In this document: positions 1 to 32,619 of the stretch, in pieces
How the letters are laid out: every line of letters starts with the position of its first letter
Position numbering within the stretch: position 1 is the first letter of the stretch
Source: Bacillota bacterium
GTDB lineage: Bacteria; Bacillota; Limnochordia; Darwinibacteriales; Darwinibacteriaceae
Direction: 5' to 3'
Assembly (NCBI GenBank): GCA_012518645.1
Contig: JAAYRS010000043.1
Span: forward strand, 1 to 33,446
Length of the DNA stretch: 33,446 nucleotides
The notes under the pieces: model-generated
Told to the model about the DNA's origin: nothing
The model's database searches: none
What the model saw: only the letters and a program-made list of their open reading frames with translations
Program-made: the position numbers and the translations under genes

Positions 1-122
1 ACCCAATCGTCAACACCACTTACCTAAACCAGACTCTACAAGATCAATCCTCGGATGGGAATTCGACCCCGCTCTAGCGGATTGCGGGTACAGGGCACCG
101 CTACTGCCCCGTCTAGCACGAC
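1..122 (-). ncRNA. ffs: Signal recognition particle RNA, large Firmicutes type (5' part; runs off left edge)
   Basis: Read on the minus strand, this begins with GTGCTAGACGGGG and continues with GTAGCGGTGCCCTGTACC and GCAATCCGCTCTAGC. These are the conserved 5' blocks of the Bacillus-type scRNA (Alu domain). It later holds GTAAGTGGTGTTGACG, also typical of the large SRP RNA. The RNA is the scaffold of the particle that targets nascent membrane and secreted proteins (Ffh partner). The S domain and 3' end lie beyond base 1. A consensus promoter sits just upstream. In Bacillus the next gene is dnaX, which I expect off the left edge. Confidence 0.93.
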
Positions 123-505: not shown

Positions 506-598
506 TGGCGGAGAGAGAGGGATTCGAACCCTCGAGGGGCTCATCACCCCTACACGATTTCCAGTCGTGCCTGTTCAGCCGGACTCCAGCATCTCTCC
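506..598 (-). tRNA. tRNA-Ser (GGA)
   Basis: A 93-base cloverleaf including an encoded CCA. The acceptor stem is GGAGAGA/TCTCTCC. The anticodon loop in CGACTGGAAATCG gives anticodon GGA. The T arm reads GAGGGTTCGAATCCCTC, and a long variable arm (GGGGTGATGAGCCCC) is diagnostic of serine tRNA. The discriminator is G. Confidence 0.97.
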
Positions 599-615
599 CA
601 ATTATTCAACTTTCA

Positions 616-705
616 TGGCGGAGAGGGTGGGATTTGAACCCACGGGGCGCTTACACGCCCAACGGTTTTCGAGACCGCCACATTCGGCCGCTCTGTCACC
701 TCTCC
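616..705 (-). tRNA. tRNA-Ser (CGA)
   Basis: A 90-base cloverleaf including encoded CCA. The acceptor stem is GGAGAGG/CCTCTCC. The anticodon loop CTCGAAA gives CGA. The variable arm GGGCGTGTAAGCGCCC and T arm GTGGGTTCAAATCCCAC are of serine type. It starts three bases after the tadA stop, so tadA mRNA and tRNA are very likely co-transcribed and processed apart. The nearby GGA tRNA shares its body plan, consistent with an old tandem duplication. Confidence 0.97.
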
Positions 706-11062: not shown

Positions 11063-11286
11063 TCTAAACCACCACCTAAAAATCTCTTTGAACACAGGAT
11101 ACCCCTAAATCGGGGGGATTATAAATTATTACCAAAAAAACTCAGTTTTTATTTTAAAAGAAATTGAAGGGCCTTTTCCCCCGGTGAAGGGGCGTTAGGA
11201 CCTCAAAGCAAAACGCCCTTCGCATTGGGAAACAAATCCCGGTGGAAAAAAAGACGGACTTGTGTTATGATTAAAAAAAGTTTAAG

Positions 11287-11330
11287 GAGGAGTTTAGCAG
11301 AGATGAGACGAGACGAGTTGAGTATTAGAG
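11287..11330 (+). promoter_or_regulatory. TRAP binding site over the trpP ribosome site and start codon
   Basis: (G/T)AG triplets start at 11290 (GAG), 11295 (TAG), 11300, 11305, 11310, 11315 and 11320 (all GAG), and 11326 (TAG). Spacers are two bases six times and then three. A further GAG at 11287 is adjacent to the first. The array spans the GGAGG and the ATG (11303). This is the arrangement known for the tryptophan-activated TRAP protein (MtrB) on Bacillus trpP mRNA, where binding blocks ribosome access. The mtrB gene is not in this window. Confidence 0.88.
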
Positions 11331-11848
11331 ATCTGGTATTAGCCGGGCTGCTGATGGGGATGGGGTTAGTCCTGCATGCCGTTTTCCCTGGAATTCTAGG
11401 CGGCATGAAACCTGATTTTTCCCTCTTGATGCTGTTTGTAGTTATGATGGTCATCCCCGATCGCAGGATTGCTATCATTGCCGGAGTTGTAACCGGGGTC
11501 CTGACAGCTTTAACCACCACCTTTCCCCTGGGGCAAATCCCCAATATTGTGGATAAAGGTGTGACCACGGCAGCTGTTTTAGGAATGCTGGCGGTTACGC
11601 CTAAAAACCTCAAGGTCCCCGTTATAGGCGTTTTGGGCACTATAGTGAGCGGTACTGCCTTTTTGACCACGGCACTGGTTTTAACCGGGTTACCGGCACC
11701 TTTCACCGCTTTATTCATCGCGGTGGTCTTACCCGCCACGGTAGGCAATACCCTGGGTCTTGCTGTCTTTTACCCCATTGTGGCCAAACTCTACGATTTG
11801 CAGAGTCAGAAGGCACCCAGCGGTTCACTGCAAAGACCGGTAAAGTAA
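11303..11848 (+). CDS. trpP: Tryptophan transporter TrpP (YhaG)
   Basis: A 181-residue integral membrane protein with about five or six hydrophobic helices. Family blocks seen: ILGGMKPDFSLLMLF, GVLTALTTTFPLGQIPNIVDK, LGTIVSGTAFLTTALVL, LPATVGNTLGLAVFYPIV. These match Bacillus TrpP closely, so it most likely imports tryptophan. ATG at 11303 is chosen because the frame's beginning (RRDELSIRDLVLAGLL) and GGAGG fit; another ATG at 11267 is possible. The start lies inside a TRAP-like (G/U)AG array. The leader also has an imperfect hairpin (11186-11196 with 11212-11221). It is monocistronic, ending in a terminator. Confidence 0.93.
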   Translation: MRRDELSIRDLVLAGLLMGMGLVLHAVFPGILGGMKPDFSLLMLFVVMMVIPDRRIAIIAGVVTGVLTALTTTFPLGQIPNIVDKGVTTAAVLGMLAVTPKNLKVPVIGVLGTIVSGTAFLTTALVLTGLPAPFTALFIAVVLPATVGNTLGLAVFYPIVAKLYDLQSQKAPSGSLQRPVK

Positions 11849-11860
11849 AGAATGTAACCA

Positions 11861-11889
11861 AAAACCCCGCCGAGCCGCGGGGTTTTTTT
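11861..11889. terminator. Bidirectional intrinsic terminator between trpP and the M42 gene
   Basis: AACCCCGC pairs with GCGGGGTT around a six-base loop. T-tract GGTTTTTTTA follows on the plus strand, and a shorter T run follows on the minus strand. It serves two convergent genes. Confidence 0.9.
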
Positions 11890-24855: not shown

Positions 24856-24865
24856 TAACATGAAA

Positions 24866-25027
24866 TCTCCGAAGACCGTTTAGGGCGCGGGGGACCCGAT
24901 TTTCTGGGGTGAATCTTGTTTTCAAGAGGGGCGACTTGGGCGTCCTAACCCGTCAGCTAACCCCGCAGGAGTACACCAAGCGTGATGCCTTGCAAGTTTT
25001 TGCATTAGCAGATACGCTTTTTGTTTT
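24866..25027 (+). promoter_or_regulatory. c-di-AMP riboswitch (ydaO/yuaA class) with terminator
   Basis: Conserved blocks of the ydaO class are present: GCGGGGGACC (about 24887), GGGGTGAATCTT (24906-24917), and CCCGTCAGCTAACCCCGCAGG (24949-24969). The 3' end can form a terminator: AAGCGT (24978) with ACGCTT (25014-25019), inner ATGC/GCAT, then TTTTTGTTTT. In known members c-di-AMP binding promotes termination. The downstream gene is a short unrecognised ORF. Confidence 0.92.
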
Positions 25028-25338: not shown

Positions 25339-26736
25339 GTGTCAAAACAGAATAAAACGGAAATGATCCTTAACGGCAGCATTTACAGGGTGCTTCTTGT
25401 ACTTTCCGGCCCCATTATTATCAACAGCCTGATTCAAACGCTGTACAACTTGGTTGATGGGATCTGGGTCAGCAAACTTTCCTCCGTCCACTTCGCGGCC
25501 ACTGCCTTCGTTTGGCCGGTAAACTTTCTTTTTATCTCCTTGGGAATGGGCCTTTCCATTGCAGGTACTTCCCTCTTATCCCAGTTAACCGGTGCCGGGG
25601 ACATGCAAACAGCACAGGAATATTCCGCTCAGCTAATAGTAGTTACTTTACTTAGTTCTCTCGTCTTTACATTTCTGGGTTATCTTTTCAGCCCCATAGT
25701 TATCGGATTAATGGGAGCCCGCGGTGATCTGGCTTCATTGGGGAACATCTACTTAAGGATCACTTTTTTAGATCTTCCTTTCATGTTTCTTTTCTTTAAT
25801 ATTAACTCCATAATGCATGCTCAGGGCGATACGATCACCCCCATGGTTCTCAGCGGGGCTTCCGCAATTTTAAATGTTGTTTTAGATCCGCTCTTCATTT
25901 TTACCTTTAACTTAGGTATTGCCGGTGCCGCCTGGGCCACTCTGGCCTCTAGAGCAGCCTTGGCAGCCTTCGGTTCGCTGATGCTCTTTAGTGAGAAAAA
26001 CAAAATTAAGCCTAACTTAGCGGGTTTCCGGTTTAAAAAAGATGTCCTTAAGGATATCTTCACTGTGGGCCTGCCCTCAAGCATCGGACAATCAGGCGCC
26101 TCCCTGGGATTTATTGTCCTCAATGGTTTTATCGGCTCCTACGGGACCGCTACCATCGCAGCTTACGCCATGGTTAACAGGATTACTTCTTTGGTGATGC
26201 AGCCGGCCATGGGCATCGGCGCCGCTTTAACCGCTGTAGTGGGGCAGAATATAGGGGCCGGCCGGATGGATAGGGTCAAAGAGTCCTTTTATAAGGCACT
26301 TCTGCTTACAAGCGTTATTGGGGTTGTTGGCTTTGTTTTGCTTAAAATATTCGACCACCCTATTATCACTTTCTTTATGCAGGCCAAAGATGACCCCTCT
26401 GTTATTGATCTGGCTCTCAATTATTTGTTTTACATTTCTTTATCCATGCCCTTGATGGGCATTTTCAGTGTGTTTCAGGGATTATTCCAAGGAAGCGGTA
26501 ATACTAAGTATTCTATGGCCATGGAAGTAGGCCGGCTGTGGCTGGTGCGCCTGCCTTTAATTCTCTTTTTTAAACATTTTTCCACGCGGGGCCCCTCCGG
26601 AATTTGGTTCTCCATGAGTTTTAGCAATTTAATTGTTTGTTTGTACGGTTATTGGGTTTACCAGGGGGCCGGCTGGCAAAAACGGGTAATCCAATCCAAA
26701 AAAGAACCCCAAGAAACTTGGGGTTTAGCGAAATGA
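25339..26736 (+). CDS. MATE family efflux transporter
   Basis: A 465-residue membrane protein with about 12 helices. ILNGSIYRVLLVLSGPIIIN at the start and NIGAGRMDRVKESF after helix 8 are typical MATE (NorM/DinF group) elements. It is predicted to export drugs or other organic cations using Na+ or H+. GTG at 25339 follows AAAAGGAGAGCGAAC. The last 40 bases of the CDS also encode the terminator of the convergent grd operon. Substrate cannot be told from sequence. Confidence 0.93.
   Translation: MSKQNKTEMILNGSIYRVLLVLSGPIIINSLIQTLYNLVDGIWVSKLSSVHFAATAFVWPVNFLFISLGMGLSIAGTSLLSQLTGAGDMQTAQEYSAQLIVVTLLSSLVFTFLGYLFSPIVIGLMGARGDLASLGNIYLRITFLDLPFMFLFFNINSIMHAQGDTITPMVLSGASAILNVVLDPLFIFTFNLGIAGAAWATLASRAALAAFGSLMLFSEKNKIKPNLAGFRFKKDVLKDIFTVGLPSSIGQSGASLGFIVLNGFIGSYGTATIAAYAMVNRITSLVMQPAMGIGAALTAVVGQNIGAGRMDRVKESFYKALLLTSVIGVVGFVLLKIFDHPIITFFMQAKDDPSVIDLALNYLFYISLSMPLMGIFSVFQGLFQGSGNTKYSMAMEVGRLWLVRLPLILFFKHFSTRGPSGIWFSMSFSNLIVCLYGYWVYQGAGWQKRVIQSKKEPQETWGLAK
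26697..26727 (-). terminator. Terminator of the glycine reductase operon, inside the MATE coding end
   Basis: AACCCCAAG pairs with CTTGGGGTT around a TTT loop, followed by CTTTTTT on the minus strand. The hairpin lies within the final codons of the MATE gene, 18 bases after the grdD stop. Confidence 0.85.
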
Positions 26737-26744
26737 AAGAATCC

Positions 26745-27890
26745 TTAATCGAGGAGCCCTTCTTTTTTTAAAACAATCCGTGCAGTTTCGAAATCTTCCG
26801 GAGCTGTAAGGATTATCGGCCCGGTGCATCCCATACCGCTACGGGCGAAAATCCCCTCTTTCCACAATGCCTGCTGAGCGGTTTCTAATTCTAAAATATC
26901 CAACCCGGTTATTTCTTCGGTCACTATCTTTTCCGGAGGTGCGCTTACCGTATCCACCCGGGTTTTTTCTGCACCCCTCTTCAAAAGATCATCCAAGCCT
27001 GCTTTTCCGGCCGCGGCCAATTCTGCTTTGACCGCCTTAACAAGCCCGCCCCGGGCAACTTCTTCTGCAAATTTTAAGGCTTCGGCCGCAACAGGCGCCC
27101 CGGAAGCACGGGAGATAATTAAAATTATCTTTTCGCCGGCAGCACCTACACCGGGGCCGTAGCCGGAACCTAAAGTTTCGTAATTACCCCCGCTGTTAAA
27201 GGCGGAAAAGACCTTCATGAGCACGTTGCCTGTGAGTGTATCTGTGACCAAAACATCCGGGCTGCCCATTAAAAGATCGTTACCCCGCATTAGAGGGCCT
27301 CCCCCGCGGACACTTTCGGCAAAAGTAAGTTTATAGCCGTTAGCGGCCAGCTGTTTTAAATTTCGTTCCACAGCCCGGGCTGAATCCACATTAAGAATGC
27401 CTAAAGTGGGGTTGGCAAGGCCTTGGGCTTTGGCCACGGCTAGGCCATAAATGGAGTTTTTGACCATTGCTGCTTCCCGTTGGGAATCAGAGGCACCGGT
27501 TGTAGTAGCCACAAGCATTTTCCTGCCGGTGGCCGGGGCAATAATGCGCCCAACCGTGGAAACCCCAATAGGAAAATTATAATTCATTGTAACACAGGCG
27601 GCCAAATCCCCTTTTTCTAAAGCTTCCTCCATTATTTTATGCTGTTCTTCTTCGTCTGCAGCCCTAAGCTGGGCTAGATTGCTTTTAACCCGGGGTCCGA
27701 TCAAAACAACTTCTAGACCGGGATAGGCCCGCTGGGCAATTTCGGCACCGCGGACAATCTCTTCCGGCCCGTGTTCACTACCTAAAACAGTGATGCCTAA
27801 GCGGAGGGCACTGCCTAATGCGCCCTGCTCAAGAGACTCCCCTATTTCCCGAAAGGTTTCGGCTGCCAGCTTTTTTATGGAATCCGACAA
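26745..27890 (-). CDS. grdD: Glycine reductase component C, alpha subunit GrdD
   Basis: With GrdC, releases acetyl phosphate from the carboxymethyl (selenoether) group on GrdA. The 381-residue protein is PlsX-like (LRLGITVLGSEHGPEEIVRG near the start) and has SGMGCTGPII with Cys355, the cysteine expected to form the acetyl thioester. Start is taken as TTG at 27890, after AAGGAGGTG, giving the family beginning SDSIKKLAAETF. An ATG at 27908 overlapping the grdC stop (ATGA) is the alternative. Last gene of the operon. Confidence 0.95.
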   Translation of the reverse strand: MSDSIKKLAAETFREIGESLEQGALGSALRLGITVLGSEHGPEEIVRGAEIAQRAYPGLEVVLIGPRVKSNLAQLRAADEEEQHKIMEEALEKGDLAACVTMNYNFPIGVSTVGRIIAPATGRKMLVATTTGASDSQREAAMVKNSIYGLAVAKAQGLANPTLGILNVDSARAVERNLKQLAANGYKLTFAESVRGGGPLMRGNDLLMGSPDVLVTDTLTGNVLMKVFSAFNSGGNYETLGSGYGPGVGAAGEKIILIISRASGAPVAAEALKFAEEVARGGLVKAVKAELAAAGKAGLDDLLKRGAEKTRVDTVSAPPEKIVTEEITGLDILELETAQQALWKEGIFARSGMGCTGPIILTAPEDFETARIVLKKEGLLD

Positions 27891-27904
27891 GCAATCCACC
27901 TCCT

Positions 27905-29437
27905 TCATTGATCCAGAATTGCGGCTAAATCTTGCATAGCCTCGGCAATAATGCGGCGCACTTCATCCTTAGGGGCGGTCCCGGCCGAGGCCTTCAGCCC
28001 GGGATTCTTTTCCACCAGAAAGGAAATCCCGTCAAAAAGATTGGTAAGGCGGGCTAAAAAGAGAGAACCTTTGCCAATGATCATGAAGTTCTTGATTTCA
28101 CCCTCTAAAATTAGGTCCCGCCCTGCGCCTAAAAAGGGTACGCCGGAGGGAATGTGCCCTTGAGTCGGAGCATACCCGGGCATGCCGTGCCGGGAGGCAA
28201 AATCCGCAAGTTCGCTGCGTTCTAAATCCCCCCGCTTGACCCCTAGGGCGGCAATCATTTTAAAATTAGCTTCGGCTACATTACCTGCGCCTGCCGGCAC
28301 AGTTATTTCAGGGTTTTGCAGTTCCGGAGCAAACAGATCCACATCCCTAATACTTAAACCGGCGCGCTCCAAAGGATCGGTAACAACCGCGGTGAGCACG
28401 GCCTGCGGCGAGGAACCTGAACCAATAGTGTGCCTGCCTACGGTATCCGTGCGGATTTGAGGGTTAATGCCGTCATTGCTGCTGATTAGGACGGCAAAAG
28501 CACCCAGCAAATCTTCCAAGATGGGCATCCCTTTTTTAAGGTGTTCCCTTCCGTTCATACCCAGTTTAGCGGTGGCTCCGCCGGCCACGACAACCACGTT
28601 TTTAAAGACACCGGCCTGGACCAGGGCCGCTGCGGAAACCAAAGCATGGACCGGGCCGGAGCAAAAGCTGCGTAAATCACTTCCCGTTGCGTTTTTAAGC
28701 CCGCACATCTCACCTATAGCCTTAGCAAAATTGCCGCCGCCCCGCTGGTTCATATCCCCGGCGGCTTCTTCAGAACACTCAATAATATAATCTACATCTA
28801 AAGGATCGATCCCGTTTTCCCGGAAAAGATGCCGCAGAACCAAAACAGCTGATGCTTTCGCCGCCAAATTCTCAAACATAATTGAAGCTGATAGGGCCTG
28901 ATCAAGATCATGGGCGGGTGCAACAGCACCAATTAAATCAGAACCAATCTTCATGGGGCTGGCATCGGCCTTTAGCATTTTTTGAAGATCCTCCAGATCC
29001 GCACCTGGCCCTAAAAGGGCTAAATCGTCCTGATCGAAAAGAGGGTGTTTTTCCAGTTTAGCCTGAATTTCAGCCCTAAAGCCCTTTTCCAATTTGATTA
29101 GATCAAAGACATCCACAATTTTCATTAAGGCATAGAATTCATCTTCGGGCATAATTTCCCCGTAAGGCCCAAAACGGGAGGCGCTCTCTAATTTTTGTTC
29201 ATACCAAGGCTGAGCAATTTGCTCCAAATCCTTGGGCTTTATGGCCCCAATATAAGCCTGGTTGGGAGGATAGGCCGCTGCTTGATCAAAGCTCCGGAGA
29301 GCAGAGGGAAGTTCCTTTAAATATTGGGATTGTTCGTTTTTAGCCCCTTCCAACAACTGCGTTGTACCGTGGGTAAGCAGGATATTCGGTGCGTGCACCA
29401 AGGCATAAGCAGCTGCCTTCAAAACAGGAAAATTCAT
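27905..29437 (-). CDS. grdC: Glycine reductase component C, beta subunit GrdC
   Basis: A 510-residue FabH/thiolase-like partner of GrdD in the acetyl-phosphate-forming step. It begins MNFPVLKAAAYALVHAPNIL, a family start; RSFCSGPVHALVSAAALVQAG (about residues 255-275) is the thiolase-like active-site block, and VVVVAGGATAKLGMNG follows. ATG at 29437 follows TTGGAGGTGG. It is 26 bases after grdB. Confidence 0.95.
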   Translation of the reverse strand: MNFPVLKAAAYALVHAPNILLTHGTTQLLEGAKNEQSQYLKELPSALRSFDQAAAYPPNQAYIGAIKPKDLEQIAQPWYEQKLESASRFGPYGEIMPEDEFYALMKIVDVFDLIKLEKGFRAEIQAKLEKHPLFDQDDLALLGPGADLEDLQKMLKADASPMKIGSDLIGAVAPAHDLDQALSASIMFENLAAKASAVLVLRHLFRENGIDPLDVDYIIECSEEAAGDMNQRGGGNFAKAIGEMCGLKNATGSDLRSFCSGPVHALVSAAALVQAGVFKNVVVVAGGATAKLGMNGREHLKKGMPILEDLLGAFAVLISSNDGINPQIRTDTVGRHTIGSGSSPQAVLTAVVTDPLERAGLSIRDVDLFAPELQNPEITVPAGAGNVAEANFKMIAALGVKRGDLERSELADFASRHGMPGYAPTQGHIPSGVPFLGAGRDLILEGEIKNFMIIGKGSLFLARLTNLFDGISFLVEKNPGLKASAGTAPKDEVRRIIAEAMQDLAAILDQ

Positions 29438-29463: not shown

Positions 29464-30780
29464 TTAGTCCCTTGAAAACACAGTTTGTTCTTGAACCGGG
29501 GTTTCTAAAGCCTGCAGAGCTTGTTTAACAAGCTTCAGCCGTAATTCTTTTTCCTTTTCCGGCCCTAAGGCCGGATCCCCTAAAGGATAAGGAATCGCTA
29601 CAGTGGGAACAATGCGGTTGGCCCCAACTGTAAGGGAAATAGGCACCACAGTGCAAAGATGGACCACGGGAAGCCCTTTGCGTTCGATTTCTTTTACCAT
29701 CGTTGCGCCGCAACGAGTACAGGTGCCTCAGGTACTGGTTAGAATTACTGCATGGACGCCTTCATTAACTAATTCCCCGGCGATTTCCGCAGCGAAAGCG
29801 GCAGCGTTAGCAACGGAGGTCCCATTTCCGGTAGTAGAGTAAAAATAAGAATGCAGCTGCCCAATTTCGCCCTCTGCCTCCAACTGGCGCAGAACATCGA
29901 CAGGGAGCACCCGATCACTGTCTTGGTTGGCATAAGTGGGATCGTAACCGCCGTGGGCTGTTTCATAGCTAGCCGCGCTAAGATCGTCAACCCCAGCTAA
30001 GTTATACCTGCCGTACTTGGTAGCGCTGGAGGATTCAATTCGATCCGGATTGCCTTTAGGTACGATTCCGCCGGACGTAACTAGGGCTATCTTGCTTTGT
30101 TTTACAGCCTCAACTGCCGGTGCAGGCTCAACCCGATCAAAGGTGGGCAGAGGGTATTCGGTTTCAAAAGGCCGCTTGTTTAACTTAGCCGCCAACATAT
30201 CCAAAGCCCGCTCGGATCCGCGCTTAGCAACGAAAATATTTTGGCGCACCCCCCGCTGCAGATAGCCCTCCGCCTCCGCCGGCCCCATTTCTTCTTTTCT
30301 GCCCAGTTTAAGAGCGAGCTTGGCAATTTTCGGCAGAGCCTGCCTCATAGAAGCGGCGGAATTACCCGTTTCCACAATATAGGCGAATTTTCGGTAAAGA
30401 TCTACTCCGGGGTTTTCTGCAAACATCCCCGAGACGGTGGGAATACCGATTTCCTCTAAGACAACTTTAGCAACAGCACCGCAGGCAACTCCGTACCTAC
30501 CGGCATTAAAAGCGGGACCCGCCACCACTAAATCGGGCTTATGCTTGGCAATCATTTTAACCACTGTTTTGCTTGCTTCTGCTAAGTTCTCGTTGAAATA
30601 ACCGTCACCGCAGATCACTGTGGCCACAACTTCCCCTTTTTGGCCTAAGGCCGCCTTTAAACCAATACCGGGGCCCAGGGCACCTTCCCGTTCCGCCGGG
30701 GGTAAATCCGCCTTTTCTTCCCCCCCGATTCCGGCAAAAAACTGATTCAAATAATGAACAAGGCGCACTTTTTGAGTCAT
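29464..30780 (-). CDS. grdB: Glycine reductase component B, selenoprotein GrdB (UGA = Sec)
   Basis: Substrate-specific selenoprotein that activates glycine. The frame has an internal TGA at 29730-29728, Sec351, in the motif U-GT-C-TR-C (UxxCxxC), the known GrdB active site. The protein reads LTST-U-GTCTRCGATMVKEI, then the family end VGANRIVPTVAIPYPLGDP. Total length 438 residues, as in homologues. ATG at 30780 follows GGAGGGG. A hairpin after the TGA may be the SECIS. Position between grdA and grdC favours glycine over sarcosine or betaine. Confidence 0.95.
29701..29715 (-). promoter_or_regulatory. Candidate bacterial SECIS hairpin of grdB
   Basis: CGTTGC and GCAACG pair around a GGC loop, starting 12 bases after the Sec UGA. 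Bacterial SelB-binding hairpins lie at this distance, within the coding region. Confidence 0.65.
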
Positions 30781-30812
30781 TTTCACCCCTCCTATATCCA
30801 GATTACCCCCAC

Positions 30813-31304: not shown

Positions 31305-32594
31305 CTACAGCATTCGGGCGGAAATCTTGTTAAAACCGAGCTCATTAGTGGCGCCGATAATCATCTGGATTTCAGCGCGAATAGAACCGTCTGCTCTTAA
31401 ACTGCCCGCAAATCCGCCGGCAACTACATCAACAACCCCGGCACTGCCGTCCCCGATAATTTTTTCCATGGGCGGCAGCATAATGATTTCGTTGGCATTG
31501 CCCGCAGTAACCAGAGCATTTACTAAGGGGCTGGAATCCGCCAAAGATTGAGAGGCTCCGTCCCGGCCGGCATATTCATCAGTTAAACAAACGGTTTTAA
31601 TCCCTTTTTTCTCTAGCTTGGTACAGCTCATAATCAGGTCAGTATCGGGATTCCCAAAACCTTCTTCGGAAATAACAACACCTTCGGCGCCCAGCCATTC
31701 AACTAATTTGGCAGTGTAGTTGGAAGAGCGTTCTTTATCGGTAAGGGTAACGTTTTCATTGGTAACAACCACTCCGATAAAGTTAAAATCACGTCCGTGG
31801 CGATCTAAAAGATCGTAGATAATTGGATTGTTGAGGTGATGGTAAGTAGTGTTTTTATCGCAGGCAGAAACGCAATTGCCGCTGACTATGGCACCATCCA
31901 TTACTTCGGTGGGGTAGATCAAGGTAGGCAGAATTTTTTTCACATCCAGGCCGTACAGGTAAGTGTCGTGAAGAAGGCCCTGGCTTTGCAGCATATAAAC
32001 GTAAGCTACTTTAGGCAGCTCAGGATACTGTTGCAGTGCCTGGGGCAGGGGAGGGCAGTTGTAGCTGATTGTTTTATCCGGCTTAACATTCCGCCCGGCT
32101 GCACCAAGGTAGGCCGCGGCTTTTAAACCCAAGAGCCGCAGGGCTTCTTCATGGCTATGCCGCTCCAGCCCCTTCACCGGTTCAGCTACAAGAACAATAT
32201 TCTGGGTTTTAGAAAAAGGCGTATATTTTGCCCCGGGGCCGCTCATATCGATCAGCCCCTCTTGAAAACCCACTACTTGGCCCACAGTGAGAACACAGGC
32301 GCCTTTTAAAACGTGGGTGCGCCCGCTGCCAACCGTATCAACCGTATGGACAAAGCCTGGGAAAAGCCCCCCGGGCCCTTCAACCTTAACCCGGGGCTCA
32401 ATAGCATCCTTGACAGGAATAATGCGTGTGGCTTCACCGGGCTTGGCTAACTTCAGATCAATAAAAGCCAAACGCTCATCCTGCAGTTTGGCTAAAAGCT
32501 CATCTTTGTCAATAAAAAGAATTCCCTCTTTAACTTGGGTTTTCTTCCCTAATTGGACATCTTTAATGAAAATCTGACCTAATTCTAAGTGCAT
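31305..32594 (-). CDS. grdE: Glycine reductase component B, proprotein GrdE
   Basis: A 429-residue proprotein that is cut into two subunits; cleavage at VSGN-CVSAC converts Cys241 into a pyruvoyl group that binds the amino group of glycine as a Schiff base. It begins MHLELGQIFIKDVQLG, a family start. GSGRTHVLKGACVLTVG and MLPPMEKIIGDGSAG are further family blocks. ATG at 32594 follows GGGAGGTG. It works with GrdB. Confidence 0.96.
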   Translation of the reverse strand: MHLELGQIFIKDVQLGKKTQVKEGILFIDKDELLAKLQDERLAFIDLKLAKPGEATRIIPVKDAIEPRVKVEGPGGLFPGFVHTVDTVGSGRTHVLKGACVLTVGQVVGFQEGLIDMSGPGAKYTPFSKTQNIVLVAEPVKGLERHSHEEALRLLGLKAAAYLGAAGRNVKPDKTISYNCPPLPQALQQYPELPKVAYVYMLQSQGLLHDTYLYGLDVKKILPTLIYPTEVMDGAIVSGNCVSACDKNTTYHHLNNPIIYDLLDRHGRDFNFIGVVVTNENVTLTDKERSSNYTAKLVEWLGAEGVVISEEGFGNPDTDLIMSCTKLEKKGIKTVCLTDEYAGRDGASQSLADSSPLVNALVTAGNANEIIMLPPMEKIIGDGSAGVVDVVAGGFAGSLRADGSIRAEIQMIIGATNELGFNKISARML

Positions 32595-32619
32595 CAAGTT
32601 CACCTCCCTAAGGCGGGGC

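Follow-up and report, generated by a model that had tools for sequence, protein, structure and literature searches.

The window, which is the whole stretch of DNA that was analysed (33,446 nt), comprises a tryptophan transporter gene, trpP, whose ribosome-binding region and first codons are occupied by an array of (G/T)AG triplets of the TRAP (MtrB) type. The features of this locus were the following:

11243..11271, plus strand: likely sigma-70 promoter, TGGAAA, 17 nt and TGtTATGAT (extended -10), from a consensus scan
11285..11290, plus strand: Shine-Dalgarno sequence AGGAGG, read from the sequence, 12 nt 5' of the ATG and overlapped by the first triplet(s)
11290..11328, plus strand: TRAP-type array with GAG at 11290, TAG at 11295, GAG at 11300, 11305, 11310, 11315 and 11320, and TAG at 11326, from the triplet count, a genome pattern search and conservation
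11303..11305, plus strand: trpP start codon, lying inside the array as GAG-AT-GAG, with its A and T serving as spacer and its G opening the next triplet
11303..11848, plus strand: trpP, tryptophan transporter of 181 aa (PF17099, E = 6e-42), codons 1-9 of which hold the second half of the array
11860..11887, plus strand: intrinsic terminator with an 11 bp stem and a T tail, 3' of trpP

The eight triplets spanned positions 11290-11328 in steps of 5, 5, 5, 5, 5, 5 and 6, leaving spacers of 2, 2, 2, 2, 2, 2 and 3 nt, so that every number given in the first-pass annotation (seven triplets 5 bases apart and one 6 bases further on) was correct. Two additional triplets were out of register, namely a GAG at 11287, which overlaps the Shine-Dalgarno sequence and leaves no spacer to the triplet at 11290, and a TAG at 11340, and the count of eight therefore stands. 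The same annotation placed the array over GGAGG, the ATG and the first codons, and the positions agreed: GGAGG lies at 11286-11290, and the array covers the 3' end of AGGAGG, the start codon and codons 1-9, overlapping the region where ribosomes bind on a Trp gene. Bacillus TRAP targets are quoted as having 9-11 NAG repeats (PMC4347634), and eight triplets with spacers of 2-3 nt are at or just under the usual number of about 9-11. Counting against the TRAP reading, eight in-register triplets are fewer than the 11 positions of the ring, and a gap of 12 nt between the Shine-Dalgarno sequence and the ATG is long.

Regarding the transcript, the score of the promoter scan alone was no better than the shuffle expectation, and a TATAAT-like box was found about 20 nt 5' of the array, recurring at about the same distance in the aligned relatives. 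The trpP mRNA would accordingly be placed with its start near 11278 and the array about 10 nt from its 5' end, a predicted position at the very 5' end which leaves no room for an attenuator. As the terminator lies directly behind trpP, the gene is probably monocistronic. An upstream ATG at 11267 was considered as the trpP start and rejected for overlapping the -10 box and not being conserved. Moreover, the T-box family RF00230 (Rfam) had no match in the window or in the trpP and trpB loci of this genome.

The array exceeded what was expected by chance. When 300 copies of the window were generated with an order-2 Markov model, their longest chains with 5/6 spacing on both strands had 2-5 triplets, compared with 8 in the real sequence, whose minus strand reached only 3. 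Base shuffles preserving the composition of the segment itself reached eight in 0 of 20,000 cases, while an order-1 Markov model fitted to the purine-rich segment, and inheriting its richness in GAG, did so in 0.17%. A control with the reversed pattern carries no information, since GAG is the same read backwards, and the Markov copies, the genomes lacking mtrB and the operon trpB paralogues were used as controls instead. Within the 2.06 Mb genome, a perfect array of six triplets with 2-nt spacers was found in just two places, trpP and trpB, and the same two were recovered with a pattern of five triplets allowing two 3-nt spacers.

Conservation of the array was evaluated in the close TrpP genes of the class (this one and 11 others). 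All 12 presented the array over the start with variable spacers, so that the check proposed for related trpP leaders came out in favour of the TRAP reading, and in their alignment on the start codon the mean frequency of the top base was 0.92 in triplet columns vs. 0.67 in spacer columns. The start codon was embedded as GAG(A/T)TGAG in 11 of these genes and as TAGTTGAG in the twelfth. Furthermore, synonymous re-coding of codons 2-9 (5,000 draws with the codon usage of the genes themselves) gave a summed chain with a mean of 43 and a maximum of 58, compared with the 81 observed, although gene by gene the test was weak for 4 of the 12 (P about 0.17). Since the observed sum lies beyond all re-codings, the codons bearing the array are held for reasons of RNA beyond the amino acids alone; the idea that the array constrains the N-terminus of the protein was thus supported, synonymous re-coding destroying the array.

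The genome encodes the cognate protein. Its mtrB gene was found with an E value of 4.6e-36, lying between genes named from their translations as DNA polymerase III alpha-like and phosphofructokinase-like, and the earlier proposal that this anaerobe has MtrB is therefore supported. The product aligned without gaps with the solved TRAP structures, being close kin to them. In TRAP structures, K37, K56 and R58 contact the RNA, while the pocket positions tested contact tryptophan. The equivalents of K37, K56, R58, T25, G27, T30, H33, H34, T49, T52 and S53 (in B. subtilis MtrB numbering) were invariant in 31 of 31 MtrBs of the class, so both the RNA-contact and the tryptophan-pocket residues are kept in the TRAP of this genome. 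At a broader scale, mtrB was present in 54 of 73 genomes of the class and in 200 of 399 sampled genomes of the phylum.

The genome search for arrays at trp genes, also proposed in the first-pass annotation, yielded one further site, a second perfect array (C67:2218-2260, minus strand), which overlies both the ribosome site and the start codon of a lone trpB, identified by TIGR00263 with 579.6 bits vs. a cut-off of 392. Neither trpF nor trpC gave a match in this genome, and the latter was missing in 22 of the 23 genomes of the family, which makes an assembly gap an unlikely cause; with the patterns applied, no TRAP site of the trpG type was found here either. TrpB by itself is able to form tryptophan from indole plus serine. 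Judging from the undetected trpC and trpF, TRAP would most likely control here the uptake of tryptophan and the salvage of indole in an organism auxotrophic for tryptophan.

Across the class, the 5-triplet pattern matched in 42 of 73 genomes, and the genes lying behind the arrays in this set included trpE, trpB, trpB2, trpG, trpD and trpP. Arrays at trp genes appeared in 37 of the 54 genomes with mtrB vs. 3 of the 19 without it (Fisher's exact test, P = 1e-4), a value to be taken as indicative because the test ignores shared ancestry and the arrays were called by hand. The three exceptions (G015, G045 and G055), having arrays without a detected mtrB, count against the TRAP reading, and possibly reflect assembly gaps. 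Several matches were not next to a Trp gene (L108, L109, L110, L120, L138, L140 and L149) or were found at solute-binding proteins (L117 and L125), and they were taken as chance or unexplained; this minority of the class matches is probably due to chance. Two divergent arrays of 5/6 triplets were also observed, covering the start of a LivG-like and of a LivK-like ABC transporter gene (L145; G059:C1:287036-287063, minus strand, and 287557-287579, plus strand). They were equally taken as chance or unexplained, and the transporter possibly carries tryptophan or aromatic amino acids.

The trpB genes, split by hand into stand-alone and operon types, presented chains of mostly 3-10 triplets (one of 1) when standing alone in genomes with mtrB, and of 1-3 triplets when of the operon type, often within one genome. 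In the mtrB-less genome G024, the chain in the leader of the solo trpB was just 2. Moreover, in g9, an mtrB-less genus belonging to the family of this organism, each of the five genomes in which trpB was matched in full had a T-box, and no array, 5' of that gene (L207, L213, L214, L215 and L216). One of these T-boxes scored over and four under the Rfam gathering score, all with E < 1e-16, and UGG stood at the specifier position in the alignments; TRAP thus appears to have been replaced by a T-box in this genus. Regarding trpP, nine genes of the Clostridia type had a T-box and no array, while array-like chains were found in relatives of Bacillus and in a Halanaerobium. With T-boxes occurring where arrays are absent, TRAP arrays and T-boxes look like alternative solutions on shared genes. 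A conserved ATGTTGTGAA word was also noticed between the T-box and trpP in Clostridia lacking TRAP (L051, L052, L053, L054, L055, L059 and L060), which may represent a leader ORF of two codons (Met-Leu-stop).

The array was seen to run past the ATG in the solo trpB genes L130, L131, L132, L134 and L136 as an N-terminal tail rich in R, V, E, L and S, such as MSKVELSRVEGRSAEEAGRGFFGDFGG in L131 and MSKAELNRVELSGVEQSGVDGVKDQQRPGYFGEFGG in L130. The operon and T-box copies of trpB began few residues ahead of the core (MSTVVKAGRFGMFGG in L190 and MSKGRFGKHGG in L214), and this difference between array-bearing and other copies supports a role of the array in shaping the N-terminus. Furthermore, arrays were located just 5' of or over the starts of three tryptophanase/tyrosine-phenol-lyase-like genes:

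L154 (G071:C70, 6126-6153): six triplets at a tryptophanase/tyrosine-phenol-lyase-like gene
L166 (G066): four triplets at a homologue 83% identical to that of L154
L128 (G022:C1:681-703): five triplets at a tryptophanase/tyrosine-phenol-lyase-like gene

Repression at high tryptophan of an enzyme that breaks it down is unexpected, and ordinary repression logic offers no explanation for such a target. In the open-access literature, to which the search was confined, no TRAP arrays were described at lone trpB genes, in auxotrophs or at tryptophanase genes. Overall, the balance tips modestly towards a TRAP which has lost its classical trp-operon job and would act as a scavenging switch on the importer and a lone TrpB in an auxotroph, with the arrays writing N-terminal tails (e.g. 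MSKVELSRVE...) onto TrpB and TrpP, and with some relatives adding a tryptophanase/tyrosine-phenol-lyase-like target.

The closest known system is that of B. subtilis trpP (yhaG), at which TRAP blocks ribosome binding (Sarsero 2000 and Yakhnin 2004, cited in PMC4347634 and PMC11255114). The two sites share the gene family, (G/U)AG triplets separated for the most part by 2 nt, the placement in the initiation region and the ring protein. They differ in that the host here is an uncultured anaerobe of another class, with eight in-register triplets, an array extending to codon 9, and a genome in which neither trpC nor trpF was found. TRAP is also known to occlude the initiation region directly, as predicted here, at its sites on B. 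subtilis trpG/pabA and ycbK (PMC11255114), which are other genes; trpG-type sites were found in the class relatives L127 and L141. The protein and the triplet code are likewise those of the B. subtilis trpEDCFBA leader attenuator, and trpE leaders with upstream arrays were found in other families of the class (L147, L148, L151, L156 and L158), whereas the site at trpP has neither attenuator nor operon and is purely one of the initiation region. On the other hand, the Trp T-box (RF00230) at trpP or trpB of Clostridia and genus g9 governs the same genes according to tryptophan status, but it reads the charging of tRNA-Trp, while TRAP reads free tryptophan, and it appears where arrays are absent.

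Taken together, the trpP array very probably represents a tryptophan-activated TRAP (MtrB) site that blocks ribosomes, the same ring most likely repressing the lone trpB via the second array. When tryptophan is plentiful, TRAP would wrap the 5' end of the trpP mRNA over the Shine-Dalgarno sequence, the AUG and the first codons, ribosome binding would be blocked and synthesis of the importer would stop; when it is scarce, the ring would release the mRNA. Through an array of like design, it would also repress the lone trpB, whose product would supply tryptophan from salvaged indole. We infer from the sequence the binding, its tryptophan dependence and the repression, as well as the transcription start and the auxotrophy.

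It seems extremely improbable that the array simply results from a ribosome site rich in purines next to an Arg/Glu-rich N-terminus, with TRAP uninvolved: GAG repeats do naturally overlap Shine-Dalgarno sequences, and the N-terminus MRRDELS is rich in R and E, but the Markov, shuffle and synonymous re-coding tests argue against it, as do the exact 5-nt register with variable spacers across 12 genes, the location of both arrays of the genome on Trp genes, and the shorter N-termini of operon trpB copies without arrays. It is also very improbable that the array is a relic of past TRAP control, with trpP now regulated otherwise (e.g. by a T-box or the promoter), since the genome's own mtrB is intact, no T-box was found at the trpP locus, and the eight-triplet array is perfect, compared with the chain of 2 at the solo trpB of mtrB-less G024; in favour of such a relic are the three class genomes with arrays and no detected mtrB, and the replacement of TRAP by a T-box that seems to have occurred in the sister genus g9. 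An action of TRAP on trpP mainly via mRNA decay or transcription would be compatible with TRAP binding and, given that an array about 10 nt from the predicted mRNA 5' end could let the ring affect access to that end, is less remote, though still unlikely. Nevertheless, the stretch from the predicted start to the array is too short for an attenuator hairpin, and the array lies over the ribosome site in the manner of B. subtilis trpP, at which ribosome binding is blocked by TRAP (cited in PMC4347634 and PMC11255114). Direct block of initiation is therefore the best reading for an array so placed.

TRAP itself, the triplet code and the repression of trpP by such a geometry are already known, and mtrB is common in the phylum, while a regulon limited to salvage, arrays that write N-terminal tails and arrays at tryptophanase-like genes were less to be expected. 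TRAP, a textbook example of an RNA-binding regulator, has been studied almost exclusively in Bacillus; judging from these genomes, it would be an ordinary regulator in uncultured anaerobes, with a target list readable directly from sequence. The putative salvage-only regulon, the apparent swap of TRAP for a T-box in a sister genus and the arrays within coding sequence would constitute natural experiments on the rewiring of regulons and on N-termini shaped by a code.

Elsewhere in the window, the following features were observed:

1-121, minus strand: large SRP RNA, truncated at the end of the contig, with two tRNA genes next to it (509-705, minus strand)
24857-24987, plus strand: c-di-AMP riboswitch, lying ahead of the gene for a MATE-type efflux transporter (25339-26733)
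29467-30786, minus strand: sarcosine/glycine reductase selenoprotein B, with Sec353 encoded by an in-frame UGA and a SECIS element of the bacterial type (29690-29727); the neighbouring genes encode component C of the reductase (26748-29437) and the alpha subunit of component B (31308-32603)
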